DNA of 64,000 nucleotides from Aureococcus anophagefferens. Taxonomy: Eukaryota; Sar; Pelagophyceae; Pelagomonadales; Pelagomonadaceae. The notes under the pieces were generated by a model that worked only from the letters and a program-made list of their open reading frames with translations, was not told the DNA's origin and made no database searches. The DNA is taken from NCBI RefSeq assembly GCF_000186865.1, contig NW_008705564.1, positions 684,444-748,443 of the forward strand. The letters run 5' to 3'. Shown here piece by piece: positions 11,003-59,000 of this stretch. The position numbers and the translations under genes are program-made. How positions within the stretch are numbered: position 1 is the stretch's first letter; each line of letters begins with the position of its first letter.

Positions 11003-13258
11003 ATGGCCCTGGATCCGCAGTCGACGCTCATCCAGCTCGAGAGCCTGAAGCTCGAGAAGACGCCGCCGGCGATCAAGCCGCGGCGGTCGCGATCCGCGTG
11101 GTGCGTCCTCCTCGTCGCCGTGTCGTGCCTCGCCGTCGGCTTCGTCGGCGGCGCGCTCTTCGCGCGGCTCACGCGCGACGGCGGCGACGACGACGACGAC
11201 GTCGCGGCGGACGCGAGCGCCGCGGACGCCGCCGCGGACGCCGCGGTGGACGCGGACGGCGCGGTGGACGCGGACGCGCCGACGCCGCGGCCGACCGCCG
11301 CGGCGCCCGCGCCGGCCGCGGCGCCCGCGCCGCGGCCGACCGTCGCGCCGCCGGCGCCGACGGCCGCCGCGTCGACGTTCTGCTGCTACTACACGCCGTC
11401 GGACTGCGGCGCCTGCGAGGACGCGGCGGCGGCCGACGACTGGTGCTCGGCCGCGCGCGACCGCTGCGAGGGCTCGTGCGGCGCGACGTGGTGCGCCAGC
11501 GGCGCGCCGGCGCCGTCGCCGCGGCCCACGGCCGCCGACGGCGCGCCGACGGCGGGCCCGACGGCGACGCCGCGGCCGTCGGCCGCGGCGCCGACGGCCG
11601 AGCGGAGCCTCTTCGCGACGGCGCCCGGCTACTACGTGAACCCGACGCTCGCCGCGAACCTCGACGCGTCCATCGCGACGACGGACGACGCGGCCGTCGC
11701 CGCGACGCTCGAGGCCATGAAGGGCGTCGCGTCGGCGTACTGGATCGACGTCAAGGGGAAGCTGGACCCCAACGGGACGTCGACGGCGGACGCGCGCGGT
11801 ATACTTTTAGACGCCGCGGCGCACGCGGAGCCGCCGCTCGTCGTCTTCATCGTCTACGACCTGCCGAACCGGGACTGCCACGCCTACGCGTCCAACGGCG
11901 AGATCTGCTGCGCGTACAACGACGACGGCACCTGCGACTACGACAACTCGGGCGACTGCGCCGCGGGCCTCGACCAGGGCGGGAAACAAACATATTCGAC
12001 ACGACTTCAATGTTCGTGTATGTGCACGGTTTCGACATACGTTCTTCGCTGTCTGAAAAGAATTCGCCGAGAGGAAACGATGCGTCCAAAAATCAGCCAA
12101 AACGACTGTGATTTGACCGAGCTAGAGAAGTTTTGCTGGACAGGGCGTTCCACTGGGTATTTCGCACACAGGCCTCGACGAGTACAAGACGACCTACGTC
12201 GACCCCTTCGCGGCAATCCTCGCGGAGTTCGAGGGCGTCGTGCCCGTGGCGCTCATCCTCGAGCCGGACTCGCTGCCCAACTTCGCAACGAACCTCGACG
12301 ACCCGCGCTGCGGGAACATAGGGACCAAAAACGCGTACGAGCTCGGCATCGCCTACGCCGTCGAGGCCCTCAAGGCCGCGGCGCCGTCGGCGCACATCTA
12401 CCTGGACGCGGGCCACGGCGGCTGGCTCGGCTGGGAGGACAATTTGGAGTCCTTCGCGTCGACCGTCGCGTCGCTCGGCGTCGAGGACCACCTCCGGGGC
12501 TTCGCGACGAACACGGCCAACTACCAGCCCCTCGGCGAGCCCTGCGCCGACGGCGTCGACTGCATCACGGGGCCCGGCGCGTCGTCCGCCTGCTGCGACG
12601 ACCCCTGCGGCCTCCTGTCCCAGTACAACCGCGGCCAGAACCAGGGCAGCACAAGAGAGCGAAATTCCCAACTTCAAAGGCTCCGATCTCGGCCGTTTTC
12701 CACTCGTTTCGGCTGATCTTTGGACGAGCGATCATCTCTCGGAACGGCCTCGAAGCGTGGATGTTTTTTACGGAACGCGCGCGCGCGGAACACTCACGTT
12801 GAAGCGACGTTGAATCTCTCTTGTCCTGCCCAGGCCAGAACGAGCACGAGTACGCGCGGCTTCTGGTCGACGCCATGGCCGCGGCCATGCCGGGCTTCGC
12901 CCCCAGAGTCGTCATCGACTCGGGCCGCAACGGGAACCCCGGCGCGCGGACCGACTGCGCGTCCTGGTGCAACCCGCGCGACGCGGGCGCGGGCGCCGTG
13001 CCGACGGCGGTCACGCGCGACCCGGACGTCGTCGACGCGTACTTCTGGCTCAAGACGCCGGGCGAGTCCGACGGCTGCACGGCGCTCCTGCCGTCGGCCG
13101 ACGACGAGTGGGTCTCCGACGGCGCCTGCCCCCGCTTCGACCAGGGCTGCGCGTCCGTCGACTCCATCGGCACGGCGGCCGGGGAGCCCTACGCGCCCGA
13201 GGCGGGCCACTGGTACGACTACCAGATCAAGATGCTCGCGGAATTCGCGGACATGTAG
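11003..13258 (+). CDS. Membrane-anchored GH6 cellulase (cellobiohydrolase/endoglucanase), 616 residues, three exons
   Basis: Exons 11003-11966, 12172-12633 and 12834-13258; both introns are introner elements. Residues about 31-53 form a single transmembrane anchor with a basic cytosolic side, so the enzyme is probably a type II membrane protein facing the secretory lumen or outside. An Ala/Pro/Thr/Asp linker, a Cys-rich module (FCCYYTPSDCGACE...CEGSCGATWC) and a second linker precede the GH6 domain. Family residues are present: YDLPNRDC with Asp291 (equivalent to Asp175 of Trichoderma Cel6A), LEPDSLPN with the catalytic acid Asp354 (equivalent to Asp221), DAGHGGWLGW, IDSGRNG and the WLKTPGESDG block. 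It hydrolyses beta-1,4-glucan; a wall-remodelling or feeding role is inference. Confidence 0.92.
11975..12171 (-). mobile_element. Introner element, family B, antisense, intron 1 of the cellulase
   Basis: 197 bp between exact copies of GCCTCGAC (11967-11974 and 12172-12179). The right end CACACAG gives the AG acceptor; the left duplication gives a GC donor, so the intron is 11967-12171. The left end (CAGGGCGGGAAAC) has drifted from the family end CTGTGTGGAAA. Confidence 0.88.
12642..12833 (+). mobile_element. Introner element, family A, intron 2 of the cellulase
   Basis: 192 bp with ends CAGGGCAGCACAAGAGAG and CTCTCTTGTCCTGCCCAG. Exact duplication GCCAGAAC at 12634-12641 and 12834-12841. GC donor from the duplication, AG from the element; splicing restores NRGQNEHEYA. 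Confidence 0.93.
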
Positions 13259-13459
13259 CAACTCACAGACCGGCAGCCCCCAAACTCGAAGACGGGACCC
13301 ACCCCCCAAATTAAAACGGCGCGAAGCCTACCTGCTAGGGGCGCCAGCCGCGAGACCGTTGAAGGTCAACGCGTCGACATTGAGGAAGCCAGGAACCCGG
13401 CCCGGCAGTGACACACGGTTGCTGCCTCCGCCAGTTGCGCGCGGGCAGCCTCTGAGGAC

Positions 13460-16400
13460 ATGCCGCGCGTCCACACGGAGGAGTCGCGCACGGGACCGGA
13501 CTGGCCGCGGTCCCGGTCGCTGGCGACGCCGCGGCGCGAGGGCGACGGCGGGCGGAGCTCCGCCGACGAGCGCGAGAGCGTCGAGAGCCGCGCGTCGACG
13601 AAGCGCACGCGGAGCAAATCCAAGAAGAAGAAGCGGCCGCCGTCGGAGGCGCCGCCGGCCCTCGTCGTCGGCGACCACGTCCAGCTCCAGGGCCTGCCGT
13701 CGAAGCACCTCAACGGGCGGGCGGGCGTCATCGCGCGCGTCTTCAACGACGGCAAGCGCGGCGTGAGGGTGCCCGGCCGCAAGGGCCTCGTGTCGGCCTT
13801 CCGGCGCCAGATGGTCCTCGTCGCGCCGCCCGACGCGGCCGTCGAGGAGACCAAGGGCGGGGACGACGCACCCGCAGTCGACCCGAGCGCGCTCTGGCCG
13901 CCGCCGCCGCCGGAGGCGCCGGCCGCCGCGCCGGCCGCGGCGCGGCCGCGGCCCGCGCCGCCCTCGGAGCCGCCGCCGCCGGAGCCGGAGCCGTCGGAGC
14001 CGCCCCCGGCCGCCGCGACGCCGTCGGCGACGCCGTCGGCGCCGTCGTCGGTGCTGCCGTCGGCGCTGCCGCCCGTCGCGACGCCGCGCGCCGCCGCGCC
14101 GCCGCCGCCGCCGCCGGGGTCGCCGTCGTCGTCCGCGGCCGCGNNNNNNNNNNNNNNNNNNNNNNNNNNNNNNNNNNNNNNNNNNNNNNNNNNGAGGGCG
14201 CCGCGCTGTGTGGAAATCAACCGCTGGTTTGGGACGTCTCGACCAAACTTTGAAATTCTCTATCTCGATCAAGTCGAAGTCGATTCGGCTGATTTTTGGA
14301 CGAATCGATTGATCTCGTCGGGTTCTCGAAGCACAGCTGAAGAGTCCGGCGCAATCCGTTCGATTACGCGCACATTGAAGTCGAGTTGAAGATTTGATTT
14401 CCACACAGGCGCCGCGGGCCCGCCCGTCGGAGACGCGAAGATCGCGGCGATGATCGCCTCCGCGGCGGCGCCCGGCGCGCCCGACGACGGCGGCGGCGAC
14501 GACGACGACGATGACGACGCGGAGCCCTTGGAGCCCCCCGCGCCCGCGGCGCCCGAGGAGCCCGAGGAGCCCGAGGACCCCCACCGGCGCCGCTCGCCGC
14601 GCGCGGGCGACGTCTGCCGGGGCGCCGCGGCGTCGCGGGCCGTCGCGGCGCCCGGGTCGCTGGCCGCGGAGCTCGAGGAGACGCAGGCGACCTTCGAGCA
14701 GGTGCCGGCGCCGCCGACGGGCTTCGGCGCGCTCGCGGCGCTCGACGCGTTCGTGAGCGGGCCCTCGCCGCCGCCGACGCCGCCGCCCGCGCCGCCGCCG
14801 CCGCCCGAGCCCGAGCCCGAGCCGAGCGACGACGACGAGGCCGCGGCGACGCGCGCGCGGAGCGAGTCCGAGGCCGCGGAGAAGACGCAGAGCTCCTGGA
14901 TCGAGTCCGTGCGCTTCGGGGACCTCATCTCCCTCGAGGGCCACCTCGACCCCGCGCTCGTCGAGGACTCCTTCTTCGTCCGCGGCGACGCGACGTCGGG
15001 CCAGGTCGACGCGGCGCTGAGCGACGCCGATTTCCGGAGCTGCCTCTGGCGCGTCGTGCCGGCGCTCAAGTACGAGAAGCTCGAGAGCTGGTGCCGCGCG
15101 AAGACGAATTTGACGCTCGACCGCCGCCACGACCGCGTGTCCGTGTCGGCGCTGCTGGACAGCCTGGGCGTGCGCCTCGAGCGGCCGCCGGCGAAGACGG
15201 CGCCCGCCGCGGCGGAGAACCTCGCCGCTTTGAAGGTCCAGCGCGAGACGAAGGGCAACGCGGAGAAGCTCGCGGCGACGCTCGGGGCGGCAAAAGAGAG
15301 CGACATTCCCAACTTCAACGGCTCCTCTCTCGGCCGTTTTCCACTCGTTTTGGCTGATTTTTGGACGAGCGATCATCTCTTGGAAGAGTCTCGAAGCGTC
15401 GATGGTTGTTTCGGAACGCGCACGCGCGGAACACTCACGTTGAAGCGACGTCGAATCTCTCTTGTGCCGCCCAGGCGACGCTCGAGGACGCGGGCACGGC
15501 GCGCGCGCGGGACCTCATGTTCAACGAGCCCTTCCAGCTCCAGCACGTCGTGACGGGCATGTTCTTCACCTGCGCGTCGTCGCTGGGCGCGGACCTCGAC
15601 ACGCGGCGCGCGCCGGGCCTCGGCGGCGAGGACGGGCGGCCGCGGAAGCTGCTGCTGCACCCGGGCTGCGCCGGGTCCGTGCTGCTCTTCAGCCCCATGG
15701 GCGACGCCGGCGAGGTCGCGCGGCGGGCGCCCGTGTCCTACAACGACAGCGCGTTCCTGCTCGTGCGGCCCCAGGGCGACGGCGCACCGGGCAAGGGCAA
15801 GGGCGCGAAGCAGGGCGGCCGGCGCCTCGCGGGCATCTTCGACCCCGTAGAGACGACGGACGCGGCGCGCGCCATCGCGCTGTCGCCCTGCGACCACGTG
15901 GCCACGGCGCGGTGCCCCCTCCGCGAGCTCGCCGTCTACGCGCAGCCGAGCCCGCTCGCGATCCGGCCCTACGCGCGCTACCCGTCCGCGGCGCTGCGGA
16001 ACCTCGTGCACAACACGCCCTTTTTTCTGTTGAGCCAGCGCCTGCGGCGCGCCGTCGTCGTCCGCGACGGCGGGACTTTGGGGGACCACTGCGCGGTGCA
16101 CGACGAGGTCGACGACGCCGACGACGACCTCGGCTCCGAGGACGGCGAGGGCGCGCGGGAGGCCAAGGTGGGCTTCCAGGAGGCGCAGCGCGAGGACATC
16201 GTGCGCGGGGCGGGGTCCGCGCACCTCGAGAGCGCCATGATGGCCTTCGTGGCCGAGCCGGTGATGCGGCGCGGCCCGGGCAACGACCTGCTCACGCGGG
16301 GCATCTGCTTCGGCGACGTCTTCCACGTGCGCCACGCGGTCACGGGCGCCTACCTCGCCATGGCGCCGACGGTCGCGCCGGTCAAGGGGCCCGGGGGCGT

Positions 16401-19400
16401 GGACCGGCGCGACGCGCTGCTCTTCGACGACGACGACGGCCCGGACTCCGTCGACGACGCGACGCGCGCGCTCCTGGCCTTCAAGCTGCTGCCCGGCGGG
16501 CCCGAGCCGCGGCCGCCCCTGGGCACGCCCGTGCTCGACGGCATGGCCTGCCTCGTCGCGTCCGCCGCGCGGCCCCTGCGCCTGCACGCGGACGCGGACG
16601 CGACGTCCGTGTCGTTCAGCGAGCTCCCGTCGATCTCCGACGCGGACGGCGGCGCGGAGACGGCGCTCACGAACCACGAGTCCTACTACTTCGACCTGCG
16701 GTACCTGACCCCGAAGGAGCACGAGGAGCTAACGCACTGCGCGTCGCTGCGCCGCGTGTCGCACGTCTACACGGCCGTCTGCAAGACGCTGAGCATGCTG
16801 CCGCCCAACGCGGGCCTCACCAGCCCCCGCAAGGGCGACGAGAGCCGCGACGACGACGCCTTCGGCGGGCCCATGCGCGGCTCCGACGCGCGCAAGGTCC
16901 TCGCGGCGCTCGCGTCCGTGACGCGGTCCCTCCAGCGCACGTACGTCGAGCTCGGCGGCCGCGACGAGCCGTCGCGGATGATCATGACGAACCTCAGCGG
17001 CCTCGTCGACGACCCGCCCCGGGCGTCCATGCAGAACATGTGCCGCACGTCGGGCTTTTTAGACGACCTCGTGAACATGGCCGTGACGCCCATCAACCTG
17101 GGTTTAGACATTCGGTTCCACGGGCGCCGCTACGCGGACGACCGCTTCGACGCGTATCTCGCCCCGGTCCAGAAGGCCGTCCTCGCCGTCCTCGGCCGCG
17201 CCATCCTGGACAACCGCGAGTGCGAGGCCCACTTCGGCGTCGGGAGCGTGCTCATCCGCCAGGGCGAGGCGCTGCGGGCGCTGCAGGTCCAGGGCGACGC
17301 GTTCGAGCCCGCGCATCGGAGCCCTTGGTTGGTTTTAAAGGCGGCGATCCTGCGCGAGGTCGCGGACAAGCGCCACTGGTCCAAGGCGAAGCGCCACGCG
17401 GCCTGGCGCAAGGGCACGTCCAAGGTCTTCCACCGGCCCGTGTCCTTCGTCAACGTGGTGTCGTTGCAGGCGGGCCACCGCCTCGGCGCGGAGCGCGTGC
17501 TCGCGACGCTCTTCATCTCGGAGGAGACGCTGACGAACGCCGTCGTCGCCAACGCGGCGCTCGTCCGCAAGTTCTGCGAGTTCATCCTCCAGGTCCACGG
17601 CCCGCGCGCGGAGTTCCTCGAGGTGCTCGCGGCTTTATGCACCGTCGACGGCAAGGACGGGCGGTCGCGGTCCATGCTGCGCATGCAGGAGATCTGCGGC
17701 ACGCTGCTCTTCAACACGGAGATCGCCGGCCAGGCCGCGGACCTCGCGGACCACCTGCTCCTGGCCATCTCGCCGTCGGACCTGCGGGACAACCGCGCGC
17801 CGTCGCTGCCCAAGGAGGTGCACCTGTCGTGGAACGCGGACTCGAAGGAGTACCGCGTCGAGGCCGTCGACGAGCTTTTTTATGATGCCTACTCGCCGAA
17901 GCTGTTTTTTCGCGACGGGCTCAAGGAGGTGCTCTGGCCGGGCGCGCCGCGGCACGCGGAGGCGCGGCCGGCCATCGAGGTCTACGCGCTCGGGGAGCAG
18001 CTCCAGCCCGTGAAGAAGGTGCGGCGCGCCGACGGCATCGCCTGGGTCAAGGAGTCGGACCTGGAGATGAGCGAGAAGAACGTGTCCGGGCCCATCCGGC
18101 TCAAGGGCGACGCGGAACTGGAGGCGCTCGCCGCGGAGGCGACGGACCGGGCCGGCGAGCGGAAGATCGCGACGCGCGAGGAAAGGCTGCTGAACCAGCT
18201 CCAGATCGGGCGCTACTTCGAGGCGCAGCTCAAATTACTGGGCGACCTCTGCGCCGGCCGGTCGGCGCAGAACATCCTGAAGCTCCAGGCGCGCGGCGGC
18301 TTCTCCTACGAGACGCTCGTCGCCGTCTTCCGCGACGCGCGCGTGGCGCCCAGGGCAGCACAAGGGTGATTCAACGTCGCTTCAACGTGAGTGTTCCGCG
18401 CGCGCGCGTTTCGGAAACAGCACCCACGCTTCGAGAGCGCTCCGAAAGATGATCGCTCGTCCAAAAATCAGCCGAAACGAGTGGAAATCGGCCGAGATAG
18501 GAGCCTTTGAAGTTGGGAATTTCGCACGCTTTTGCTGCCCAGGTGGCGCCGTGCCTGCGTTCGGAGACGCTGAACCTGCTCAACAACCTCTACCTGGACC
18601 GCTGGCCCCACGCGCGCGTCGCGGCGCCGGCGCTGCTCTGGGTGCTCGAGGACGTCGAGTCGCGGAGGCTGAGCCCGGGCGCTTCCGCGGACGCGCTGCC
18701 CCGGTCCGCGACGCCCATCGCGGAGCCCGTGCGCGACGGCTTCGCGGCGCTCCGGCGCGAGCTCAGCCGGCATCTCGCGACGTCGGCGACGCTCAACCCG
18801 GAGAACGTCGCGTCCAACGATTTGACGGCCAAGGTCGTCGACATCGCGTCGACGCTCTTCGACTTCGGCCTATTCACGGTGGGCACGGTCGACGACACGA
18901 TCGACCTCGCGCGGCGCTTGGTGGACCTGGCGAACCCGGCCATCGACGCGCCGGCCGTGGACAAGAGCCACCTGAAGCCCGTCGCGCGGGCCAAGGCGCG
19001 CGCGCTGCGGGGCCTCGCGCAGATCAACGACGCGACGATGCACTGGCGCATCGAGCGCATCCTGAGCTACCTGTTCGAGGAGATGGGCGACCGCACCTTC
19101 GACGTGCACAAGTTCCCCAACGTCGACCCCGACCGGCCGAATCTCGGAGACATCCTGCGGACGTGCTACGGCAAGGTCATCGGCGCGCACTCGGAGGAGC
19201 TCCGGTGCGCGGTCGACAACACGTTCAACGGGCCGGACGTGCGGGCCTACGAGGCCGCGGCCTTCGGCCCGCCGGACCATCTGAGGGGCGTGCTCTCCGG
19301 CCTGCTCATCTCCGACGACGACACGTTGTTCGAGGCGGCGCTGTCGGCGCTCGTGGACACGCACTCGGTGCACGGGAAGCTCGTCGACGCGATCGAGCGC

Positions 19401-22400
19401 GGCACGTTCCTGAAGACGTCCAAGGGGCTGCCCGTCTTCGGGAAGCTCGACACGCTGAAGGGGTTGGTCATCAACCTGCGGTCGGCCATCGACACGGCGT
19501 CGACGTGGATCAAGGAGCACACGTCCGCGGCGCCGGCGAGCCCCGCGTCCGTCGACGGCTCGTCGTCGGGGCGCCGCGCGCCGTCGCCCGTCGGGGGCGT
19601 CCCCCCGCCGGTCGCCCGCGACAAGAAGGCGGCGAACGTGCTGACGACGGTGACGAACGCGCTGTTCTGGGTCGAGATCTTCGTCTACTTCGACGAGGAC
19701 GAGGACCGGAAGGAGGCCATGCCGACGGAGTGCAACATCGTCCTGGAGGGCGGCGCGGACTACGACGGCGGCTCCGGGGCGTCGACCATCGACATGGTCG
19801 TCGCGACGTCGCCGCCGCCGTCCTGGCTCCCGGACTGGTTCCTGGACCGCACGAACCGGCCGAGCCACGAGGCGCCGCTCGGCCCGAACGCGCACCACCA
19901 GTCCATCTGCTTCTCCCTGGGGCTCATCGACATCCTGATTCTCGCGTTGAAGATGGGGCGGTCCCTCATCAAGACGACGGACTCGAACCAGCCGGGGGCG
20001 AGCAACGCCATGGCCGTGCTCGTCGACGTGAGGGTCCGCGTGAAGCGGCTCGTCGACGCCGTCGTCTACTGTCTATTGTCGCTCATCGACGGCCACACGC
20101 TGGCGAAGACGTCGGTGCTCGAGCGCATCGAGGACATCATCGACTGCATCGAGGTCACGTCGCCGAAGAATCTGGTGACGCTCTGCCAGAGCATTTTTGA
20201 AGATGAAACCGACCTCTGCAAATCCGCGGACCGCAGGGCAGCAAAAGAGAGCGAAATTCCCAACTTCAAAGGCTCATATCTCGGCCGGTTTCCACTCGTT
20301 TTGGCTGATTTTTGGACGAGCGATCATCTCTCGGAACGGTCTCGAAGCGTGGATGCTTTTTCCGGAACGCGCGCGCGCGGAAAACTCATGTTGAATCGAC
20401 GTTGAATCACCCTTTTCCTGCCCAGGCGGACCGCGCGCTCATCCGCCTCATCTGCTCCTACGCGCACCAGGGCGCGCGCGAGCTCTGCGAGGGCGGCGAG
20501 CACGTGCGCGCCGACGCCGACTCCTTCCTCTGCGCCACGCTCCAATTATTGAGAACCATCGCGGGCGGCGACGAGCGCCAGCCGCACCCCGCGGTGCAGT
20601 CGTGCATCGAGGACGCGCTCTTCGAGAACCAGGACCTCGGCGCCATCGAGCGCTTCCGGCGCATCGCGACGGCGTCGTCGACGTCGCCGGCCAAGGCCGC
20701 GCAGACGTCGGCCAAGGCCGGCGCGTCCATCGCGTCGCAGGACACGCGCGTCGCGTTGATCCAACTGCTGGAGACGGTCGCGCGCGACCGCGCGGCGCTG
20801 TCGATCCGGAACGTGCTGCCCATCCCCTTCCTCGCGAAGGAGCTCATCACGCTCGACGCGCACAAGACGGAGCTATCTATTCGCGTGCAGACCATTCTGG
20901 GCAATCTGTTGTACCACGTCTTCTTCGCGACGGGCGAGCCCGAACTGGTATTGTTCACGGAGACGCTGCGGTCGCTGCTCCTCAACGACGAGCCGCCAGA
21001 GGCCGAGGGGCTCCAGAGATTGCAGGCGTCGCTGCTGGTCTTGAAGACCTTCGCGGAGGCGGTGACGGCCCAGGAGAAGGCGCGGCGCGACGAGGCGGGG
21101 CGCGGGCGCCTGAAGGAGGAGCTCGAGGAGCAGAAGAAGCGCATCGGCCTCGTGTCCATCACGGCCTACAAGGCCCTCGCGCACTGGACGAAGCGCAGCG
21201 ACCGGCCCCGCGAGGAGGCGCGCCTGCTGCGGTCGTCCATCGGCCTCGCGGGCCGCTGTGTGGAATTCAACCACTGGTTTGGGTGGTCCTGACCAAACTT
21301 CAGAATTCTCTAGCTCGATCAAATCGAAGTCGATTCGGCTGATTTTTGGACGAATCGATTGCCCTCGTCGATTTCTCGAAGCACAGCCGAAGAGATTGCG
21401 TCGAAACTGTCGCATACGCTCACATTGAAGTCGGGTTGAAGATTTGAACCACACAGGCGGGCCGCGCGGCGCGCATGCTCGCGCCCGACGAGCTCGAGGC
21501 GGCGGTGATGACGGACCAGCAGCGCCTGGCCAAGTCCCAGGAGTCGTCGAGCACGTCCCTCATGAAGAACGTCAAGGCCGCCAAGGTGCCCAAGACCATG
21601 TTCGACGTGTCGTCCATGTTCGTCGGCGGCGACGAGGAGGCCGAGGCGCGCGCGTCCGACTTCTCGAGGCCCAAGCCCGCGATCGAGCACGTGCTCAACA
21701 CGCTCGTGCTCGACGAGTTCTTCGAGCTGCGCATGGAGCAGGAGCGCATCGCGCTCCTGTTGTTGTTGCGCGGCGACCCGCTGAAGATCGACAAGGACGA
21801 CGACGGCGGCGACGACGCCGAGTCCGAGGACGACGAGGAGGAGAAGAAGAGCGAGGCCGGCGACCACGTCGCCGTCGAGATCGAGGACGAGCCCTTCCTC
21901 AAGGAGGCGACGCCGAGTAAGCGGCCCAGGGCCGCCAAGGCGCCCGCGAAGGAGGTCGAGCTCGCGCCCGCGCCGGCGAAGAAGGCGGCGAAGTCCGCCG
22001 CCGCGGACGTCGAGCCCGCGCTCGCGAAGAAGGGCACGGGCGAGGCGACGCCGCCCCACCCGGGCATCGCGAAGATCCACGCGCGGTTCCTCAAGTACAT
22101 GCGGGACCGCATGGACTGCCACGAGCCCCACACGACGAAGGCGAAGATCGAGATCGTCAAGCTCATCCGCGAGCACCTGGTGCTCGTCGCCCAGACGGAC
22201 TCGACGTCGACCTTCATCGCGACGGACAACCCCTACTCCGTCTTCTCGCCCCAGGAGCGCAAGGTCCAGTTCCTGCTGGACGTGCGGCGCGCGGTCGCGC
22301 GGACGGTGCTCGACGACGTGCTCGAGGGCAACGTCGTCATGGCCTTCATCATGCTGCTGGTCATCGGCACGATCCTGTACGAGCAGGTGCTGGGCTTGAT

Positions 22401-24348
22401 GTACGGCCTGTCCAACGGCTTCGTGGACACCTACGTGTTATTTCTCATCATGTGGATCTTCACGGCCGAGGTGACGATCAGGGCAGCAAAAGAGAGCGAA
22501 ATTCCCAACTTCAAAGGCTCATATCTCGGCCGTTTTCCACTCGTTTTGGCTAATTCTTGGACGAGCGATCATCTCTCGGAACGGTCTCGAAGCGTAGATG
22601 GTTTTTTTGGAACGCGCGCGCGGAACACTCACGTTGAAGCGACGTTGAATCTCTCTTGTCCTGCCCAGGTGACGATCAAGATGACGGCGCACGTCTACTG
22701 CCACCGGACGCTGTCGAAGTTCTTCACGGACTTCTTCTGCGTGATGGATCTTTTGTTGGTGCTCTTCGATCTCATCTCCTACTACGCGTTCGAGTCGTCG
22801 GGCGGCGCGACGAACAACCTGCGGACCGTGCGCATGCTGAAATTATTCAAATCCGCGCGGATCATGCGCGTCGTCGGCCGGGCCGTGAAGATCCGGCGCG
22901 CGAAGATGGCCGCGGCCCAGGCGGAGAAGGACAACGCGGACATGCTCGACCTCATCGGCAACGAGAGCGAGACGACGCTCCGGGGGCTCCACAAGCACGG
23001 CGTCGCGGCGGTGTGCGTCGACACGCTCGACTCCGCGGGCGACGGCGTCCACGACGCGGAGCTCGGCGAGGAGACCTACAAGCTGGCCATGACGTTGCTC
23101 AACACGGGCAACAAGGAGATCTACGACGCGTTCCAGGCCTGCGCGCGGTCCAACTCCGCGGAGAAGCAGTTCTTCGCGGAGCGCGTCATCTGGGACACGA
23201 CGGTCTTCTCGCTGCCGGGGGCGCTCGCGGCCCACAGCGAGACGACGGACGTGGAGCGCTACGAGCGCGCGGAGACGGAGGCGCGGGGGCTCGAGTCCGC
23301 GTCGTCCAAGGCCGTCGCGCTGGGGGCCTTCGCGCCCGACGCGCGCGAGATCGTCGAAACCACCAAAACGGCCGAGGCCATCTCGTCTTCCGAGCTCGCG
23401 GAGCGCTGGCTCGCGTCCATCGTCGCCAACTACTCCGCCGCGGACCAGCTCCTCATCCAGCACGCCATCGAGACGTCGACGAAGAAGGGCGTGCCGGAGA
23501 CGTCGCCCGCGATCAACGAGGCGAAGACGGCGCTCATGGGCCTGCGCTACGGCCAGCTCAACGCCGTGCTCGTCGCCGCGCTGGGCATGCTGAGCGTGCT
23601 CATGACCGACAGCATCTCGAAGATGCTCGACGCGTGCACGGACGGCGTCAACTTCGCGACGGTCGTCACGCCCAACGAGCCGGAGCTCACGCAGCTCAGC
23701 CAGTGGTCCACGGAGGGCAAGATCTACTTCGTCAGCCTGTCCGTGGGCTTCATGAACTTCTGGATCGCCGTCTACATGCTGTGCTACATGGAGTGGAACA
23801 AGCGGCGCGACACGAACGAGAAGACGCTCAAGCGCTTCGCGGGCATCCTGAACTCCTACGGCTCCGTCGACAAGTTCGCGGCGCTCCTGTCCATCATCTC
23901 GTCGCTCAACTACGGCATCTCCGTGACGTCCATCTTCTCCGTCGTCGTCACGCTCGTCGCGACGAAGACCGCCAAGACCATCGAGAAGACCGTGGCGAAC
24001 CTGCCCAAGGTCCAGGACTGGATGCTCGACCCGGACGCGCGCTTCACGTCGACGAGCCACCTCCGGCGCCTGCTCCTGTCCATCGCGCCGAGCGCGTCGA
24101 AGCACATCGAGGAGGCCGTCGCGCTGCTCAGCGAGGGCGACCTCGAGCGCGCGTCCGAGGCCGAACTCATGGACCTCGTCGTCGCGGAGAGCAGCCGCAT
24201 CATGTACCTGGCCAAGGACCTCGGCAAGCAGCTCCACGCGTCGAACGGGCCCTCCGTGTCCACGCGGCAGCGCCAGCCCACGGAGCTGCTCCTCCTGCTG
24301 AGAAACGCCGTCCGGTTCCCGCGCGTCGTCAAGGCGAAGAAGGGCTAG
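13460..24348 (+). CDS. IP3-receptor/ryanodine-receptor-like protein with a C-terminal voltage-sensor-like domain, seven exons
   Basis: Exons: 13460-14197 (contains the N gap), 14409-15274, 15475-18342, 18543-20225, 20426-21247, 21457-22470, 22669-24348; about 3,200 residues. All six introns are introner elements. A KOW-like motif (GLPSKHLNGRAGVIARVF) and Pro-rich linkers lead to the IP3R N-terminal fold (RFGDLISLEGHLDPALVEDSF, FRSCLWRVVPALKYEK). Then come MIR-type repeats (FQLQHVVTGMFFTC; DVFHVRHAVTGAYLAM) and RIH-type helical scaffold (VSFVNVVSLQAGHRLG; CLRSETLNLLNNLYLDRW). The C-terminal part has S1 (about 22328), S2-S3 (about 22425-22790) and an S4-like helix with basic residues every third position (22811-22905). 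Three more hydrophobic helices follow (near 23560, 23730, 23885). I see no GGGVGD-type selectivity filter. The family releases stored calcium; channel activity here is unproven. The 50-N gap makes the frame of exon 1 uncertain. Confidence 0.85.
14144..14193. other. Assembly gap (50 N) inside exon 1 of the IP3R-like gene
   Basis: A run of 50 Ns lies in a GCC/GCG-rich, Pro/Ala-coding tract. The frame entering from exon 1 and the phase needed at the next splice site disagree by one base if the gap is taken as exactly 50, so its true length is probably different. Confidence 0.98.
14206..14408 (+). mobile_element. Introner element, family B, intron 1 of the IP3R-like gene
   Basis: 203 bp with ends CTGTGTGGAAATCAA and TTGATTTCCACACAG, a near-perfect inverted repeat. 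Exact duplication GCGCCGCG at 14198-14205 and 14409-14416. GC donor, AG acceptor at the element end. This is the best-preserved B copy here. Confidence 0.93.
15283..15474 (+). mobile_element. Introner element, family A, intron 2 of the IP3R-like gene
   Basis: 192 bp, ends CGGGGCGGCAAAAGAGAG and CTCTCTTGTGCCGCCCAG. Exact duplication GCGACGCT at 15275-15282 and 15475-15482. GC donor, AG acceptor; splicing gives KLAATLEDAG. Both ends carry the matching C-to-G/G-to-C change (GGGCGG and CCGCCC). Confidence 0.93.
18351..18542 (-). mobile_element. Introner element, family A, antisense, intron 3 of the IP3R-like gene
   Basis: 192 bp inserted in the opposite orientation to the host gene. Exact duplication GTGGCGCC at 18343-18350 and 18543-18550. 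GT donor from the duplication, CTGCCCAG at the right end supplies AG; splicing gives DARVAPCLRSETLN. Confidence 0.93.
20234..20425 (+). mobile_element. Introner element, family A, intron 4 of the IP3R-like gene
   Basis: 192 bp. Exact duplication GCGGACCG at 20226-20233 and 20426-20433. GC donor, AG acceptor; splicing gives KSADRALIRL. Confidence 0.93.
21256..21456 (+). mobile_element. Introner element, family B, intron 5 of the IP3R-like gene
   Basis: 201 bp with ends CTGTGTGGAATTCAA and TTTGAACCACACAG. Exact duplication GCGGGCCG at 21248-21255 and 21457-21464. GC donor, AG acceptor. Confidence 0.93.
22479..22668 (+). mobile_element. Introner element, family A, intron 6 of the IP3R-like gene
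   Basis: 190 bp. Exact duplication GTGACGAT at 22471-22478 and 22669-22676. GT donor, AG acceptor. It splits the voltage-sensor-like domain just after the S2-like helix (EVTI/KMTA). Confidence 0.93.
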
Positions 24349-42400: not shown

Positions 42401-43922
42401 TGGACGGCGACGTCGCCGAGCGCGCCGGCCGCGTCGACGGCGAGCGAGAGGCTCGGCGCCGCCGCGGCGCAGGCCTCGAGCGCCGCGAGGGCGGCCTTGA
42501 GGCCGTCCGACGGCTCCGCGTCCTCGAGGCGCGCGAGGAGCGCCGCCGTTGAGGCGGCGAAGCGGCCGCCGGGCGCCGCGTCGAGGCGCGCCGCGCCCGC
42601 GTCGAGCCAGAGCGTCGACGCCGTCCCGCCGCCCTGCTCGACGGCCGCCGCGGCGACGAGGAGCGCGCGCCGCTGGTCCCGCGGCGCGCCGAAGGCCCGG
42701 GTCGCCGCCGCGGCCGCGCCGGCGGCGACGGCGACGGCCGGCGCGGACTCCGCGGACGCGAAGCGGAGCGCCGCGTGGTCCACGCCCTCCGCCCGCAGCA
42801 CCGCGGCGACGGCGGCCCAGCCGCGGTCCTCGCAGTAGCCGGCCCACTCCTCGGGCGCCTCCTCGAGCTCGAGCGCGACGGCCGCGGCCGCGCCGAAGAG
42901 GGGCGACTCCACCAAGACGTTGACGTCGACGTCCGCCGGGATCGCCGCGGCCGCGAGGTCCTTCGCGGCCGCCGACGCCAGGCCCCCCGGCAGGGCGCGC
43001 ACGAGCGCCGGCGTCGAGTCCGCGACGTCCTCGCAGCCGCCGTCCATGAGCGACCGGAAGCCCACGGTGACGTGCACCGACCTGGGCAAGAACATGGTGA
43101 TTCAACGTCGCTTCGACGTGAGTGTTTCGCGCGCGCGCGTTCCAGCAAAAGCATCCACGCTTCGAGACCGCTCCGAGCGATGATCGCTCGTCCAAAAATC
43201 AGCCGAAACGAGTGGAAAACGGCCGAGATAGGAGCCCTTGAAGTTGGGAAGTTCGCGCCCTTTTCCGGCCCCGGCACCGACGGCGCGTCGTCGTACGCGC
43301 GCGCGCTGTGGAGCGACCGCCGCGGCAGCAGGAGCGAGTCGCCGGGCCCGAGCGTGAGCGTGGAGCACGATTCGAGGAACGGCGCGACCTCGTCGTCGCC
43401 GTAGGTCGCGCAGGTGCCGAGCTTCGGCGACTCGTCGGCGGCGGACGCGCAGACGAACCACGTCTTGCGGCCGAGCACCTGGTGCACGAGCACGTCGGCC
43501 GTGTCCGTGTGGTTCGCCAGCGCCGACGCGCCGGGCGCCGACGCGTAGACGTGGACCGTGTCGCCCGCGTCGTAGTCCGCGACCGCGCCGGGCAGCCCGA
43601 GCGTTTTGAGCGCGTTCGACGACGCGCCGGCGGCGAACTTCTCGAGGCGCGCGACGAAGGACACGCGCGCGTCGCCCGCGAGCGCGGCGCCGGGGTCGAG
43701 GTTCGCCGGCAGCGGGGCGCCGCCGTGCCCCTTGACATCGACGGCGTCGCCGCGCAGGAACGCCACGACGGCGTCGAGCGCCGGGGCTGCCGCGCGCGCG
43801 CGGGCCGGCAGGAACTTTGGCGCGTCGAGGTCCGCGAAGACGGACGCGATGTGGGTCGCGTTCCGGAACTCCGCGGGGAAGGAGGCGGCGGCGACCGCCA
43901 CCAATCCGAGAAGCGCGAGCAT
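27450..43922 (-). CDS. Giant secreted/membrane protein (5,228 residues): Cupin_4 oxygenase, Cys-rich repeats, propeller, LamG, cadherin, IPT/TIG, multi-TM
   Basis: Exons in transcription order: 43922-43282, 43081-39835, 39634-38951, 38751-38432, 38244-27450; all four introns are introners and the summed frame is continuous. Signal peptide (about 1-15), then a JmjC/Cupin_4 domain with facial-triad candidates His138, Asp140 and His205 (NHTD...PRRSLHSA) and SVHVTVGF. An Ala-rich region is followed by about 20 ephrin-receptor-like Cys repeats (CPAGTY..., about 505-1155) and an NHL/YWTD-like propeller (about 1160-1500). LamG-like domain at about 1690-1905. Roughly ten cadherin repeats (linkers DVNDAP, DVNEAP; about 1960-2925). 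Many IPT/TIG repeats (GGxxxxxxGxNFG; about 2930-4410). A further Cys-rich part leads to eight to ten TM helices (from about 4620) and a basic coiled-coil tail. Probably an adhesion or sensing surface protein. Confidence 0.85.
38245..38423 (-). mobile_element. Degraded introner element, family B, last intron of the giant gene
   Basis: About 179 bp. The acceptor end (CTGTGTGGAAATTAAATC on the plus strand) is intact. The donor end has decayed to ACGGCGTCGAAAC in gene sense, and the duplications differ (GTACTGCG against GTACACGG, 5 of 8). The intron is 38245-38431 with a GT donor. Splicing gives GDGLYTEYCGDG. Confidence 0.75.
38752..38942 (+). mobile_element. Introner element, family A, antisense to the giant gene, intron 3
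   Basis: 191 bp. Duplication GTCGCGAC (palindromic) at 38744-38751 and 38943-38950. Read in gene sense: GT donor, CAGGGCAG at the left, CTGCCCAG at the acceptor. Splicing continues the frame with VATCTVGSYC. Confidence 0.92.
39635..39826 (+). mobile_element. Introner element, family A, antisense to the giant gene, intron 2
   Basis: 192 bp. Duplications CGGTAGAC (39627-39634) and CAGTAGAC (39827-39834), 7 of 8 matching. GT donor, AG acceptor in gene sense. Splicing gives ASGVYRVDASTG inside the propeller. Confidence 0.9.
43082..43273 (-). mobile_element. Introner element, family A, intron 1 of the giant gene
   Basis: 192 bp, in gene sense. Exact duplication GCACCGAC at 43074-43081 and 43274-43281. 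GT donor, AG acceptor. Splicing restores DDAPSVHVTVGF in the oxygenase domain. Confidence 0.92.
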
Positions 43923-46087: not shown

Positions 46088-46089
46088 GT

Positions 46090-46767: not shown

Positions 46768-46915
46768 GGCGGCGGCACCGTTTTGACGAGATCTTCAAGC
46801 AGGAGAACGAGCGCGAGTGATGCGCTCGACCATTTGAGTTTAAGTAGGCCACGACCGCGCCTGAGCCGCACAAACACGCCCACAACACAACCGAAACACC
46901 ACATGCGCTAGAACC

Positions 46916-49900: not shown

Positions 49901-52900
49901 ACGGCCGCGGAGAAGGCGCGGCGCGTCAGGGTCGTCAAGGGCCTCGTGGAGCACCTCGCGGCGAGCGACGCGGCCAAGTACGCCCACAAGGTGCTGGGCG
50001 TGCTGAGCGCCGCGCTCGACGAGGGCTCCGGCGAGCTGTCCGCCGTTTCTGTTACTGCCCTCAGCTGCTACGCGCGGCTGCTGCCGGAGGAGAGCCTCCG
50101 GCGGCACCTCGCGGTCGTCGTGACGGCGCTCGTCCCCTGCCTCCAGGAGGTCGGCGACGGCGCGGCGACGCTGAAGCGCGCCATGGCCAAGCGCGCGAGC
50201 GAGCTGCTCCACTGGCTGCTCGTCGAGCGGCGCGCGGTTTTAGGCCCCGCGTTCGCGTCGGTGCCGAGGCTGCCGGACGTGCCGGGCAACGCCGTCGTCG
50301 ACGCGTGCCGCGCGGCGCTGGTCGACGAGCGGGCGAAGACGGCGAACCTCGACGCCTTCCTGGGGCGGTCCCAGCACGAGCCCGTGGACGTGGACGCGGA
50401 CGGCGGCGACGCGGCGGCGGGCCCGGCGTCGCTCCGGAGCGAGCTCCAACGCCTCGCGCCGCTGCTCGAGGCCGACGCGCCGGGCGTGCGCGCCGCGGCG
50501 GCGACGGCGCTGTCCGAGACGCTGACGGCGCGCCACGACGACTTCGCGGCGCTCGTCTTCAGCGGCGACGTCGGCCAGGCGCGGACCTGCGTGGAAATCA
50601 ACCGCCGGTTCGGGACGTCCCGACCAAACTTTGAAATTCTCTAGCTCGGTAACTTCGCAGTCGATTCGGCTGATTTTTGGACGAATCGATCGCTCTCGTC
50701 GAGCTCTCGAAGCAGAGCCGAAGAGTTTGTGTCGAAACATTCGATTACGCGCACATTGAAGTCGGGTTGAAGATTTGATGTCCACACAGGCGCGGACGCC
50801 CGAGGTCGACGACGTCGCGTCCGCGCTGCTCCGCGGCGCGGCGCGCGGCGCGCGGGACCGGCGCTTCCGCCTCGCCGTCGCGACGGCCTTGGGCGATTTA
50901 GGCGCGCTGGACCCGGCCCTCGTGCGCGTGTCGCTCCACGCGCGAAGTGACCCGACGGACGCGGACGCGGCCGCGCGGCGCGAGTCGTCGACGCGCGCCG
51001 CGCGCGCGGGCACGCCGAACCCGGCGACGTCGGGCAAGAAGAAGCGGCGGGAGAACGAGGCCGACGAGCTGCGCGAGCCCGTGAACGGCGGCGTCCACCT
51101 CCAGCCGCCGCCCTGGGCCGAGGCGCGCGACGTGCTCGGCGCGCGCGTCGTCGCGCGGTACCTCGTGTCCACGCTCCGCGCGGCGACGTCGACGGGCGTC
51201 CAGGACCGGAGCGCCTTCGCCATCCAGGAGCTGCTGAAGCTCATGGACCCGGACGCGGACGACGCGCCGGCGCCGAAGGGGCCGCCGCCGTCGGGCGACG
51301 ACCGCGCGGCGAAGCGGCGCCGCGGCACGCCCGTCGCCGACGGGTCCAAGCGGAAGCGCCGGGGCGCCGAGGGCCTGCCGGACTGGGCGCGCAAGATCTT
51401 CGCGGCCGGCGACTGCTACGAGACCGTGCTGACGTACGCGGCGACGACGTACGCGATCGCGCTGCCGCCCCGGGAGCGCAAGGCGCGCCAGGAGTTCGTC
51501 GCGTCGAGCGGCCACGACGCGCGGCTCTGGGTCAAGTCCTGGGCGCGCCACCTCGCGGTCTTCGCGCGGAGCCGGACGCACGCGCCGGTCTTCGTGGCGT
51601 GCCACGCGTTGATGCGCGACGACGACCGGCTCTGCGCCGCTTTATTACCCTACCTCGTCGCCGACGCGCTGTGCTGCGGCGAGGACGCGGACGCGCTGGA
51701 CGTGGCGCGCGAGCTCACGAAGGCGCTGGAGGTCGCCGCGGACCCCGTCGTGCTGAACCTCGTCTTCTCGCTCCACGCGACGATCGAGCGCTGGCACGAC
51801 GCGGCCCGGGCCCTGGAGCGGGAGGACGCGGCGCGCGCCCGGAGCCGCGGCGCCGTGCCGGCGACGGCGGACCGCTTCGCCTGCTTCGTCGACGAGGACG
51901 GCGGCGCGCCGCGGAAGCCCGTGTCGGAGCTGCTGGCCGTCGCTCTCGAGGCGCTCCCGCCCGCGAAGCTCGCGGACGCGGCGGCGTCCATCGGAGCCGA
52001 CGCGCGGAGCGTGCTCTACCGCGAGCGGGCCCTGCGCGCGGCCCACCTGGGCATGCGCCAGCTCGCGGGCCGCGGCGCGCAGTGGCACGACGGCGCCGAC
52101 GGCTACGTGCCCGTGCTCGGCCAGGCGGACATCGAGCAGCTCGAGGTCGTCGCCTGCCGGCTGGACGACGACGCGGACTACCTGGGCGGGTTGAGCGCCT
52201 GCCGGCGGCGGGCCCAGATGCCGGGCACGCTGCGGCAGCGCGTCCGCGAGATGGAGCAGGAGGCGCAGTGGCAGCAGGCGCTCGACGGCTACGAGCACGT
52301 GCTGCGCGCGGCCGAGGGCGCCGCGCGCGCGGACGCGGCGCGCGGGTTGTTGCGGTGTTTGTTGGAGCTCGGCCACTGCGAGTCGGCGCTGCTGCACGCG
52401 GACGGCCTCGCGGCGCGCGGCGACGCGTCCGTCGCGGCCGCGGTCCGGCCCTTCGCGGCGGAGGCGGCGATGAAGCTCGGGCGCTGGGATAGGTTGGAAA
52501 GGGATGCGCGCGACGACGGCGGCGGCGACGCGCGCGTGGCGCTCGCGACCTGCGTCGCGGCGCTCCAGACGCGCGCGGCGACCGGCGACGCGGGCCCGTT
52601 CCGCGGCGCCGTCGACGCGGCGAAGCTCGCGGCCATGGAGCGCCTCTCGGCGAGCACGGAGTCCTACGGCCGCGCCTACCCCTACGTCGCCCAGCTCCAC
52701 GCGATCCGCGAGGTCGAGCACGCGGCGGAGTTGTTGGACGACCCCGACGCGCGCGACTCGGTGCTCCGGCGCTGGGACGACCGCCTGCTCGCGGGCGCCA
52801 AAACGTCCGCGGCGGGCTGGCTCGCCGTGCGCCGCGTCTGTCTGGAGGTCGCGGGCCTCCCGGAGGACGCGGGCACGTGCGCCATGCGCAGCGCCAAGGT

Positions 52901-55430: not shown

Positions 55431-55461
55431 GAGAGAGACCCCTCTCTTAATGTTGTTGTGC

Positions 55462-56006
55462 CTACCAGACGATGTCGCGCTCGGGCCGCACGGCGACGAC
55501 GACGCGGTCGTCGAGCACGCCCGCCTCGATCAAGAAGACGTCCTCCGCGTGCTCGCCGTGGGGGTTGTCGACGCCGCGCTGCGCCTGGCGCGTCGTCGGG
55601 TAGACGTCGTCGACGACGCGGACGGCGGACTCGCCGGGGACGCTCGACACCTCCTCGTCCCAGACGAACGTCGTGCCGCCGTCCTCGAAGACGCAGAGCG
55701 GGTGGATCTCGCCTGCGGTAGACGCGTTTTTGCGAGCCATCGCGCGCGCGGGAGACGCCGCATCGCGCCGCTGTTCAACACGACGCCGACGCCGAGCGCG
55801 TCGCCGTCGCCCGTTTCGTACTCAACAATGTCGTTCTCCGCCGGCTCCCACCAGAGCCCGTCGCTCTCTTCGTCGTCCGCCGCCGACGCGCGCGGCCGAT
55901 GTCTCTCGTGGGAGGCGCTCTGGTGCGTCGGTGCGATGCAGCGGCGCTGCCGGTTTGGTGCGAAGGAGCTCGCGCACCACGAGAGGAGCACCACGAGCGC
56001 ACGCAT
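55462..56006 (-). CDS. Small plastid-targeted protein of unknown function (one frame break)
   Basis: About 181 residues. The N-terminus MRALVVLLSWCASSFAPNR is a signal peptide with the ASAFAP-like motif (ASSFAP) that marks plastid proteins in heterokont algae. A Ser/Arg/His-rich transit region leads to a domain with GLWWEPAENDIVEYETGDGDALGVGVV. The frame then shifts one base at about 55735-55770 and continues GEIHPLCVFEDGGTTFVWDEEV, then RVVDDVYPTTRQ and DVFLIEAGVLDDRVVVAV. Whether the shift is an error or a small intron is open. The fold is not recognised. The start is 62 bp from the divergent TPR-cupin gene; the stop is 31 bp from the ATR stop. Confidence 0.55.
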
Positions 56007-56068
56007 CGGCAGTGCCGAGGTTCACGATGAACTCGCAATGATCACTTGTTGAACCGCCCCAGTCGCCT

Positions 56069-59000
56069 ATGGCGCAGCCTGCGAATGCGGCCTTCGTCGC
56101 CGCGCAGCCCGCGCTCGTCGTCGCCGAGGCGCGGAAGCGCGAGGCCCAGGAATACTTCAAGAGGGAGCAGTGGGAGGCGGCCGTCGCCGCCTTCGGCGAG
56201 GCCCTCGCCACCGTCGCCGGCGCCGGCGATTCGGAGAAGGCCGCGCAGCTGCGGCTCGCCATCGCGCTGAACCTGGCCCTCGCGGCGCTGCGGAGCGGCG
56301 ACGCGGCCAAGGCCGCGTCGGCCTGCGAGGACGCCCTCGCGCTCGACGGGGGCAACCTGAAGGCGCTCTACCGCCGCGGCGTCGCGCGGGGCCAGCTCGA
56401 GGATTGGGCGGGCGCGGCCGCGGACCTCGAGGCCGTCGCGGCGCGCGCCGGCGAGGGGGGCGTCGCCGCGGCGGCGCGCCAGGCCCTCGCGGCCCTCCGG
56501 GACCAGCAGGCGGCGGCGCAGCGCGGCGAGCGAGACGCGGAGGAGGCGGAGGAGGCCGCGCCGCCGAAAGAAGCCAAGCCGCCGCCCAAGTACCTCACGG
56601 CGCCGCCGCCGCCGCGGCCGGCGCCCAAGGTCGAGGCGCCGCCGCCGCCGACGCTCTCCGGCGGCTTCCTCAAGCGCGCGCGCGAGGCCGCGGAGAAGCG
56701 AAAAGCCGCCAAGAAACTGGAAGCCCAGGGACCAAAGAACAGCGAGCCCTGGAAGCAGGGCGCCAAGGCCGCCCTGGCCGCGCGCGCGAGCGCCGTCGCC
56801 GCGGCCAACGACGCGAGCCGCCTCGGCGTCGAGGAGCGCTACGTCGAGGCCGCGCTCGGCGGCGGCGGCGCGACGCCTCTCACCGCGCCGCCGTCGCCGT
56901 ACACCGTGCAAGGCGGCGGCCTCCACGGCGACGTCTGGCGCCGCGCGGCGGTCGTCGCGGCCATGACGCCGCGGCAGCGCAGGGCCGCGCCGGACCCGGC
57001 GGACGGCGACCGCCTCGGCGCGGCCGCGGCGGCGCTCGGCGCGTCGGTCGCCGCGTGCTGCCGGCGCCGCGACGACGCGCGGCGCCGCCTCGAGGACGAC
57101 GACCTGAGGGGCGTCGTCGGCGCCTGCGAGGCGGCGCTGCGCGTCGCCGACGACGCCCTGCCGGGCGCGGCGGCCGTGCTCGGCGACTACGAGGCGCGCG
57201 TGCCCGACGGCGGCGGCGCGTTCGGCGGCGGCTGGGCGCGCGAGGGCGCGCGGGCCACGGCGGCGGCGGCGCAGGTCCGCGCGCGAATCACGGCGCTCGC
57301 CGACGTCGCCGCGCGCTGCGCGCTGCTCCGGGGCGGGGCCGTCGCGGACCTCGCGGGCGACGCGGCCAAGTCCGAGCCGGCCGTCGACGGCTGCCTGGAA
57401 AAGTACGCGGCCGCGCGCCGTCCCGCGGCGGGCTTCGCGGCGGGCCGCCACCGGGGCCGCGAGAAGGTCGCGCGCGACGCCTACGCGGCGCGCGCGGCCG
57501 CGCGCGCCGCGCGCGGCGACGGCGCGGCCGCCGCGGGCGACGCGCTCAAAGCGCTGGCGCTGGACCCCTGGGCCGAGGACGCGCTGGAGCTCGTCGAGGA
57601 CTGCCTCGACGCGACGGCGCTCCTCGAGAAGATGCGGTCGCGGGCCGTCGTCCAGAGCGACGACGCCGTCGCGGTCCGCCTCAACCTGTCGTCGCGGTCG
57701 CGCGACCAGCTGAGCCCGGGGATGGCGTTCCGCGGCGGCGACTGGGCCGACGCGGACCGCGGCGAGAAGCCGCTTCTAGCCATCCGGCCGGGCCAGAAGG
57801 TGCTCGGCGCGCGGAGGGAGGCGCGGAAGCGCACGGTGGAGCGCGGGTTGCAGGACCACGCGACGTACGGCTCGGTCCTCGACCTGTGGCGCGACGCGCC
57901 CGCGGCCTACCGGGCCTCCGCGCCCGCGGGCGACGACTCGAGCGGCGGGCCCGTGCACCTCTTCGTCTTCGCCAACGACGGCTGCTGGACCGGCGGGCGC
58001 CACGTCGTCGTGCCGCGGACGTACGGCGCCCTGAGCGTCGGCCAGGACGCGTGCCGCTGGCTCGGCTACAAGCACGACCGGCCCTACTCGACGTCGCTCT
58101 ACTGCCGCGACGGCTCGGCGGCCGACGGCCTCAACGTGCTGCCCAACTTCTCCTGGGTCTGCGTCGGGGCAGGACAAGGGTGCAAAATTCCCAACTTCAA
58201 AGGCTCCTATCTCGACCGTTTTCCACTCGTTTTGGCTGATTTTTGGACGAGCGATCATCCCTCGGAGCGCTCTCGAAGCGTGGATGCTTTTCCTGGAACG
58301 CAAGCGCGCGGAACACTCACGTTGAATCACCCTTTTCCCGCCCAGGTCTGCGTCGGCGACGACTTCGAGGCGCAGTACGAGTCCACTGCGTCCGGCCGCA
58401 AGTTCAAGCCCTTCGCGGGCCGCATGGCCTACTTCCCGCCCGCGAAGCCCGGCGACGTCGCCGCCAAGTGGCGCGTGTCCCGGCCGGAGCTGCCCCGGCG
58501 CCACGCGCACTGGCTCGTCGCCGGCCGCGGCCGCGCGTTCGACTTTTCGCGCCTCGACGCCGCGCTCGACGACGTCGCCGCGGGCCGCGCGGCCCTCGTG
58601 CGCGGCGCCCACTTCGTGCCCCGGGCGTCGCAGCACTGGGACGCGCCCTACGTGAAAAACGCGCTCCTCAAGGCGGCGTCGCGCGACGTCTCCGCGGACG
58701 CCGAGGGCGCGTACGCCTGCTACCGGTCCAACGACGCGACCTTCTACGTCGAGGACGTCGACGCCTGGGCCAAGCTCCGCGACGAGGACGCGCCCCGGGG
58801 CGTCTTCGCCGCCGCGGCGACGACGACGGCGCCATTGAACGCGGGCGACCCGCTCGCGGACGTCGTCGGCGCGTACTTTGACGACCTCGGCGCGCTGGAC
58901 CCGGCGACGCCGGACGCGAGCCGGCTGCTGCGCGTGCCCCTCTTCAACGGCGCGAACCGCGCGAAACGGCGCCTCGCGCCGAGCCGCCTCGACTCCGACT

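Follow-up and report, generated by a model that had tools for sequence, protein, structure and literature searches.

Each of the introners that Huff, Zilberman and Roy described in 2016 from the pelagophyte Aureococcus anophagefferens reportedly brings one of its two splice sites along and co-opts the second. These introners come from the same species as the DNA considered here, and they are compared through the descriptions in citing papers, according to which they have a characteristic length of around 210 bp, insert in both orientations, co-opt splice sites and possess constant direct repeats as well as terminal inverted repeats (PMC9481584, PMC7789003, PMC10228655); the elements presented below have all of these features in common with them. 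One citing paper ascribes canonical splicing motifs to the published set, whereas more than half of the donors are GC here. The introners of Symbiodinium, as described in PMC9860276, are likewise bounded by inverted repeats, with the acceptor in the element and the donor taken from the duplication, but their duplication is of 4 bp rather than 8 bp. By comparison, family 4 of the metagenome-assembled genome labelled Aureococcus sp. TARA shares both the genus, as labelled, and the 8-bp duplication, but is described as carrying both splice sites in the element and as adding 12 bp to the transcript (PMC9860276), whereas removal is exact in the present case. The same paper presents introners as a leading explanation for massive intron gain.

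The window, a 64-kb stretch of the A. anophagefferens genome, contains 14 segments that we interpret, with a probability of about 95%, as introns created by introners of this species, that is, by short non-autonomous cut-and-paste DNA transposons. In all likelihood these elements belong to the published set and do not represent a new case, and the main finding, introners in A. anophagefferens, is already known; the first-pass annotation had rightly placed such introners in Aureococcus, the host being A. anophagefferens itself, where the elements were previously described. Both primers of a published species-specific pair lie in the genome at a single place, with precisely the 141-bp spacing given in print, and assign the host to this species. 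Details of how one family, A, sets the direction of splicing may be new.

Fourteen elements in the window and their host genes

Self-BLAST and profile searches (threshold E 1e-5) recover all 14 elements at the positions first noted (Table 1). The 8-bp flanking repeats are exact (8/8) in 12 of the 14 elements and match at 7/8 in A7 and 5/8 in B4, the same counts as those annotated before; the repeat of B5 is 8/8 under either of two border placements 1 base apart. CAG forms the right end, in gene sense, of all 14 elements, and the donor dinucleotides comprise seven GC and seven GT, in agreement with the earlier view of a GT or GC donor from the left repeat and a CAG acceptor. The division into two families, nine A and five B, has to be revised, as the elements fall into three families, A, B and C: B1 has mixed ends, A-like on one side and B-like on the other, so that the two-family reading was rejected for it and it was placed in C.

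Table 1. Introner elements of the window, with predicted introns, left repeats and host genes (positions in the window)
Element	Intron	Strand	Left repeat	Element span	Body relative to gene	Remark	Host gene
B1 (family C)	11967..12171	+	GCCTCGAC	11975-12171			GH6 cellulase
A1	12634..12833	+	GCCAGAAC	12642-12833	sense		GH6 cellulase
B2	14198..14408	+	GCGCCGCG	14206-14408		exon upstream largely N	
A2	15275..15474	+	GCGACGCT	15283-15474	sense	CGG donor-side end	
A3	18343..18542	+	GTGGCGCC	18351-18542	antisense		
A4	20226..20425	+	GCGGACCG	20234-20425	sense		
B3	21248..21456	+	GCGGGCCG	21256-21456			
A5	22471..22668	+	GTGACGAT	22479-22668	sense		channel-like (Ion_trans)
B4	38245..38431	-	GTACTGCG (5/8)	38245-38423		donor-side end eroded	receptor
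A6	38752..38950	-	GTCGCGAC	38752-38942	antisense		receptor
A7	39635..39834	-	GTCTACTG (7/8)	39635-39826	antisense	CGG donor-side end	
A8	43082..43281	-	GTCGGTGC	43082-43273	sense	CGG donor-side end	receptor (Ephrin_rec_like)
B5	50579..50789	+	GCGCGGAC	50587-50789			ATR kinase
A9	58157..58345	+	GTCTGCGT	58165-58345	sense	CGG donor-side end	TPR/cupin

In the mechanism that we propose, an 8-bp exon segment would be duplicated on insertion, with the element end providing the pyrimidine tract and the CAG acceptor, and the donor GY being co-opted from the duplicated exon bases; since the donor lies in these duplicated bases, exact removal restores the coding sequence. When an element is removed with one repeat, no stop codon occurs over the joined 480 bp in any of the 14 cases, and the best-scoring coding frame is kept across the junction in 13 of them. 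The previous claim that the frame is restored every time therefore stands for 13 elements, B2 not being properly scorable beside an assembly gap of 50 N just upstream of it. At the scale of genes, splicing would lengthen the stop-to-stop frame from 1,003 to 3,224 aa in the channel-like gene, which contains six elements, from 3,601 to 5,234 aa in the receptor gene and from 1,556 to 2,784 aa in the ATR gene. For the cellulase (615 to 647 aa) and TPR-cupin (1,382 to 1,319 aa) genes, the longest frame is an uninformative measure because, in our reading, wrong GC-rich frames win; the local frame test is positive for both. Pfam matches include GH6 in the cellulase gene (12126-12713), PI3_PI4_kinase, FAT, FATC and HEAT_ATR in the ATR kinase gene, and, in the TPR/cupin gene, Cupin_8 and a TPR_9 match under its curated cut-off. 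The gene once labelled IP3R-like does match Ion_trans, but nothing beyond this domain supports that label; a Pfam search of five other frames in this gene gave no match.

Copies across the genome: frame, strand and donors

Copies sampled from the genome share the anatomy described in the window: they are near-identical predicted introns, present in many copies, whose similarity runs to both splice borders, with a target-site duplication of fixed length (8 bp) that gives the GY donor and an element that gives the CAG acceptor, from which splicing itself is inferred. A core of 17 bases has 2,110 genome matches, against 0 for its reversed control, and extrapolation gives about 3,000 copies per genome. 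The window is some 3.5 times denser than arbitrary stretches, with 14 elements in 64 kb versus 5 in 80 kb (10 stretches of 8 kb). The assembly measures 49.05 Mb, whereas the size published for the species is 56.0 Mb; the gap may reflect the strain or the assembly. Viral carriage was also considered; the core matches three stretches of a viral collection, where significant similarity covers only 17-21 bases, and these matches were treated as chance.

The sample consists of 120 profile matches, or 117 copies after removal of 3 duplicates, of which 97 are testable once 14 partial copies, 5 without a usable repeat and 1 with short flanks are set aside. It was drawn from exact core matches (the first 30 on one contig), the best DNA matches to B1, 10 arbitrarily placed stretches, and pattern lists from which antisense copies were over-chosen by hand. 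The coding frame is continuous in 91 of the 97 testable copies, compared with 17.8% for shuffled flanks, and discontinuous in the other 6. In 84 of 85 continuous copies with a single prediction, the ends and the repeat predict the strand that is also the coding one. The repeat offers a GY donor in 94 of 97 copies, and two of the three without GY look like border errors. In family A, the 8-bp duplication is exact in 67 of 76 copies, whose borders were chosen allowing up to two repeat mismatches.

These observations bear on two other origins for the segments. Similar repeats are common within the introns of other organisms, and transposons might simply have landed within pre-existing introns; we consider this extremely improbable, since the element ends and repeats meet the inferred splice junctions in 14 of 14 cases and the left repeat itself copies exon sequence. 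A route via intron RNA, in which the copies spread by reverse splicing and not as DNA, has been put forward for fungal introners in PMC9860276; here it appears highly improbable, as the 8-bp duplications vary in sequence, terminal inverted repeats are present and the bodies occur in both orientations relative to splicing. The introner-type mechanism advanced in the first-pass annotation, with transposition as DNA, is instead favoured by the duplications, the terminal inverted repeats, the two orientations, the splice-coincident borders and the excess of continuous frames.

The donor-side dinucleotides of the 97 copies comprise 52 GC, 42 GT and 3 others; the GC/GT split is 57/43 among 100 matches listed, as counted by eye from 16 bases per match. 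GC-AG introns make up 39.6% of the introns of A. anophagefferens, according to PMC3033335, where this is termed an enigma. Since the majority of introner donors are GC, the duplicated exon bases are suggested to explain why GC-AG introns are common, and the GC donors of introners are a likely source of the excess. A search for U1 RNA, asking whether this snRNA is unusual, found no match in the genome and none in the control either; the putative U1 of the species is described as having the usual 5' end (PMC3033335).

Ends and body orientation of family A

An 8-bp duplication with CAGGG-type ends is the signature of the hAT superfamily, and family A has both, as a MITE of that superfamily would. 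The hAT dimerisation domain (PF05699) has no match in the genome, and the control genomes gave none either. The terminal inverted repeats of family A extend over ~18 bp and invariably differ at position 2, where the two ends agree in 0 of 76 copies (two of them with misplaced borders) versus 43% expected, while positions 9 and 11 agree in 86% and 83% versus 49% and 53% expected. CAG faces outward at one end only, which makes the ends directional. In family B, by comparison, the donor-side end is CTG in 11 of 13 sampled copies (410 exact B sites in the genome), and 4 of the 8 sampled family C copies have symmetric ends; CAG points outward at each of the two ends in family B and in roughly half of the small number of C copies sampled, for which splicing would in principle be possible both ways.

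The ends of family A constitute matched controls, with nearly the same inverted repeat at the used acceptor and at the unused end, so that a single genome suffices, without RNA, to gauge the constraint acting on the acceptor. The pattern CAGGGCAG..CTGCCCAG has 577 forward and 556 reverse genome sites (reversed-pattern controls, 0 and 1). Its variant with the donor-side A changed to G has 103+99 sites (controls 2 and 3), or ~190 copies, as 93 of 100 matches listed are genuine by eye. The acceptor-side change from A to G has 0+1 sites, the one not being an element (controls 0 and 4), and that from A to T has 0 (controls 1 and 1). Genuineness and orientation were read by eye from 80 bases at the start of each match. 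In the sampled copies, the donor-side base is A in 67, G in 8 and C in 1 of 76. The acceptor-side A is kept, while its donor-side counterpart has changed to G in part of the copies; a p-value computed for this contrast was given no weight, as it takes an estimated 188 copies and assumes them to be independent.

Between these ends, the body is sense in 66 and antisense in 34 of 100 CAGGGCAG..CTGCCCAG matches listed, counted by eye. Grouping of all sense copies in one clade (68 sense versus 59 antisense) is rejected on a 135-copy tree (AU p 0.019), which includes 60 added copies (30 sense, 24 antisense, 6 symmetric), 20 of the 24 added antisense ones being over-chosen with a decayed donor-side end. 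It is also rejected with 127 copies, body columns and a quick tree (AU p 0.011), and is not rejected in a smaller set of 38 sense and 36 antisense copies (p 0.097). Many branches are weak, and the starred branches of the body-only tree force only 1 change; exchange between copies could also mimic body flips. We lean towards a body that was turned more than once between directional ends by inversion, perhaps through exchange between the similar ~12-bp stretches of the inverted repeats.

The two orientations might also derive from a symmetric CTG..CAG ancestor that repeatedly lost one acceptor, or from A/T changes that occurred in pairs at the two ends. The symmetry seen in families B and C makes such an ancestor conceivable. 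However, the symmetric form of family A has 13 sites, of which 6 are genuine and 7 are repeat overlaps by eye (controls 4 and 4), and the 6 genuine ones are scattered sporadically in the tree, where the 6 copies require 6 changes; moreover, the donor-side base is A or, by transition, G in almost all copies and C only rarely, a pattern not easily obtained if T had been lost repeatedly. This origin is rather unlikely.

Returning to inversion, we tentatively suggest that direction in family A depends on a single base pair close to either end, at position 2 of the inverted repeat, and not on the body, which would have turned repeatedly between fixed ends and still be spliced. If so, the inverted repeat serves as both pyrimidine tract and acceptor, and the body, branch point included, must function in both orientations. 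Conservation of a branch-point region specific to one orientation was not observed, and in the right-hand region the antisense copies are, if anything, the better conserved ones. Copies with a decayed donor-side end carry longer end branches (8 versus 66 copies, p 0.006).

Elements of the window and their families

Introners of Aureococcus anophagefferens were reportedly described by Huff et al. 2016, and the finding is therefore already known. Self-comparison of the window yields two big groups of ~190-205-bp repeats; its coding regions hold 14 copies (A1-A9 and B1-B5), each flanked by 8-bp direct repeats, and the coordinates and counts that the first-pass annotation had given for them are right. 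The flanking repeats are likewise as claimed, exact in 12/14 and matching at 7/8 positions in A7 and 5/8 in B4, and profile models made from the copies, run at E 1e-5, add no further copy within the window. Two families had been proposed; A and B stand as such, B1 does not belong to B. Its ends are unlike: CTGTGTGC resembles B, CCCGCCCTG resembles A. By these ends and by grouping it forms a third family, C, with copies L002-L008 from other regions of the genome. Further features are collected below; the direct copies of ~510 bp perhaps represent a gene or domain duplication, and the L034 copy possibly lies outside a gene.

Individual features in the window and in stretches sampled elsewhere (L-numbers)
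Sequence	Positions	Feature	Remarks
Window	6838-7348	Direct copy, ~510 bp	88% identity to 7690-8200; apart from the elements
Window	7690-8200	Direct copy, ~510 bp	Partner of 6838-7348
Window	14144-14193	50 consecutive N	Immediately before B2 on the upstream side; upstream exon of the B2 intron uncheckable
L034	1432-1624	Family A element	Repeat without GC or GT start; flanks not frame-continuous
L067	560-744	Antisense family A element	60 bp from the next element; very short exon between
L067	805-995	Antisense family A element

Intron status and the ends of family A

Intron status was judged from DNA by three proxies, namely the coding frame, strand agreement and end tallies of family A. A codon-usage frame test covered 97 of the 117 sampled copies, removal comprising the element and one repeat; the frame is continuous across the element after removal in 91/97, as against 17.8% (346/1,940) with shuffled flanks. 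Among continuous copies with a single prediction, the coding strand is the one predicted from the ends and repeat in 84/85. On the splicing strand, CAGGGCAG..CTGCCCAG occurs at 1,133 places in the genome (reversed-pattern matches on the forward/reverse strand, 0/1). A change of the donor-side A to G gives 202 genome matches (control 2/3), 93 being genuine by eye among 100 matches listed; the same change on the acceptor side gives one, unrelated (control 0/4), and acceptor-side A to T gives zero in the genome (control 1/1), the end changes tallied being A to G and A to T. Common descent may account for part of the donor-side changes, which are therefore not all independent. End branches are longer in copies with a decayed donor-side end (8 vs 66, p 0.006).

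Direction and body orientation

Family B mostly ends in CTG..CAG, with CAG outward at both ends (11/13 sampled copies; 410 exact genome sites, control 0), as do 4/8 copies of family C. The ends of family A are unlike at inverted-repeat position 2 in 76/76 copies (matches expected in 43%). Few family A copies are symmetric (CTG..CAG; 6 genuine among 13 sites), and these are scattered in the tree. L097 and L098, two of the six, have repeats that are one base out of register, which suggests that the donor-side end gained a small insertion. At positions 9 and 11 the inverted repeats of family A co-vary strongly, and both ends of one copy match there far above chance, as if the inverted repeats had been corrected against each other.

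Relative to splicing, family A bodies are sense in 66 and antisense in 34 among 100 matches listed (by eye), and near-identical bodies (up to 96.8%) are found in both orientations. In a tree of 76 copies, the orientation label needs 9 changes vs ~26 in shuffles. The AU test of a single clade of sense copies is not significant with this tree (p 0.097) and significant with 135 copies (p 0.019; body columns alone, p 0.011). The simplest reading of both orientations is that the family A body would invert between the inverted repeats while the ends stay in place; it is held with moderate confidence, because branch support is low and exchange between copies is possible. According to a review (PMC10228655), Huff et al. 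2016 reported insertion in both orientations; no description of directional ends with a flipping body was recognised in the introner literature covered, which takes in subscription papers sparsely and Huff et al. 2016 not at all.

Abundance and donors

The assembly measures 49.05 Mb in 86 contigs, below the 56.0 Mb printed for A. anophagefferens, and the G+C of the window is 71%, the printed values being 69.5% and 67.4%. A species-specific phosphate-transporter primer pair for A. anophagefferens, given in PMC3237563, has one complete site in the genome with the exact 141-bp spacing. An exact 17-base core, found in 10/14 window copies, occurs 2,110 times in the genome, which scales roughly to ~2,950 copies; a sample of arbitrarily placed stretches, 80 kb in all, has five copies and leads, again roughly, to ~3,070, and element density in the window is ~3.5x that of this sample.

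The donor side of 97 copies reads GC in 52, GT in 42 and neither in 3. The acceptor end followed by GC or GT occurs 1,461 times in the genome (control 0/1), with GC in 57 and GT in 43 among 100 matches listed (by eye). In family A, 40/76 donors are GC, compared with 0 to 50% across introner families in PMC9860276. Past these two bases the donor consensus is slight, and none of the 42 GT copies has A at position +3. GT and GC donors differ in intron phase (39 vs 50 copies, p 0.0002), as would be expected of a donor borrowed from codons. Published descriptions of A. anophagefferens agree with the present data in G+C, in introner length (near 210 bp; PMC9481584) and in abundant GC donors (PMC3033335). 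The latter gives 39.6% of introns as GC-AG and terms this an enigma, for which introner insertion is a simple reason on offer.
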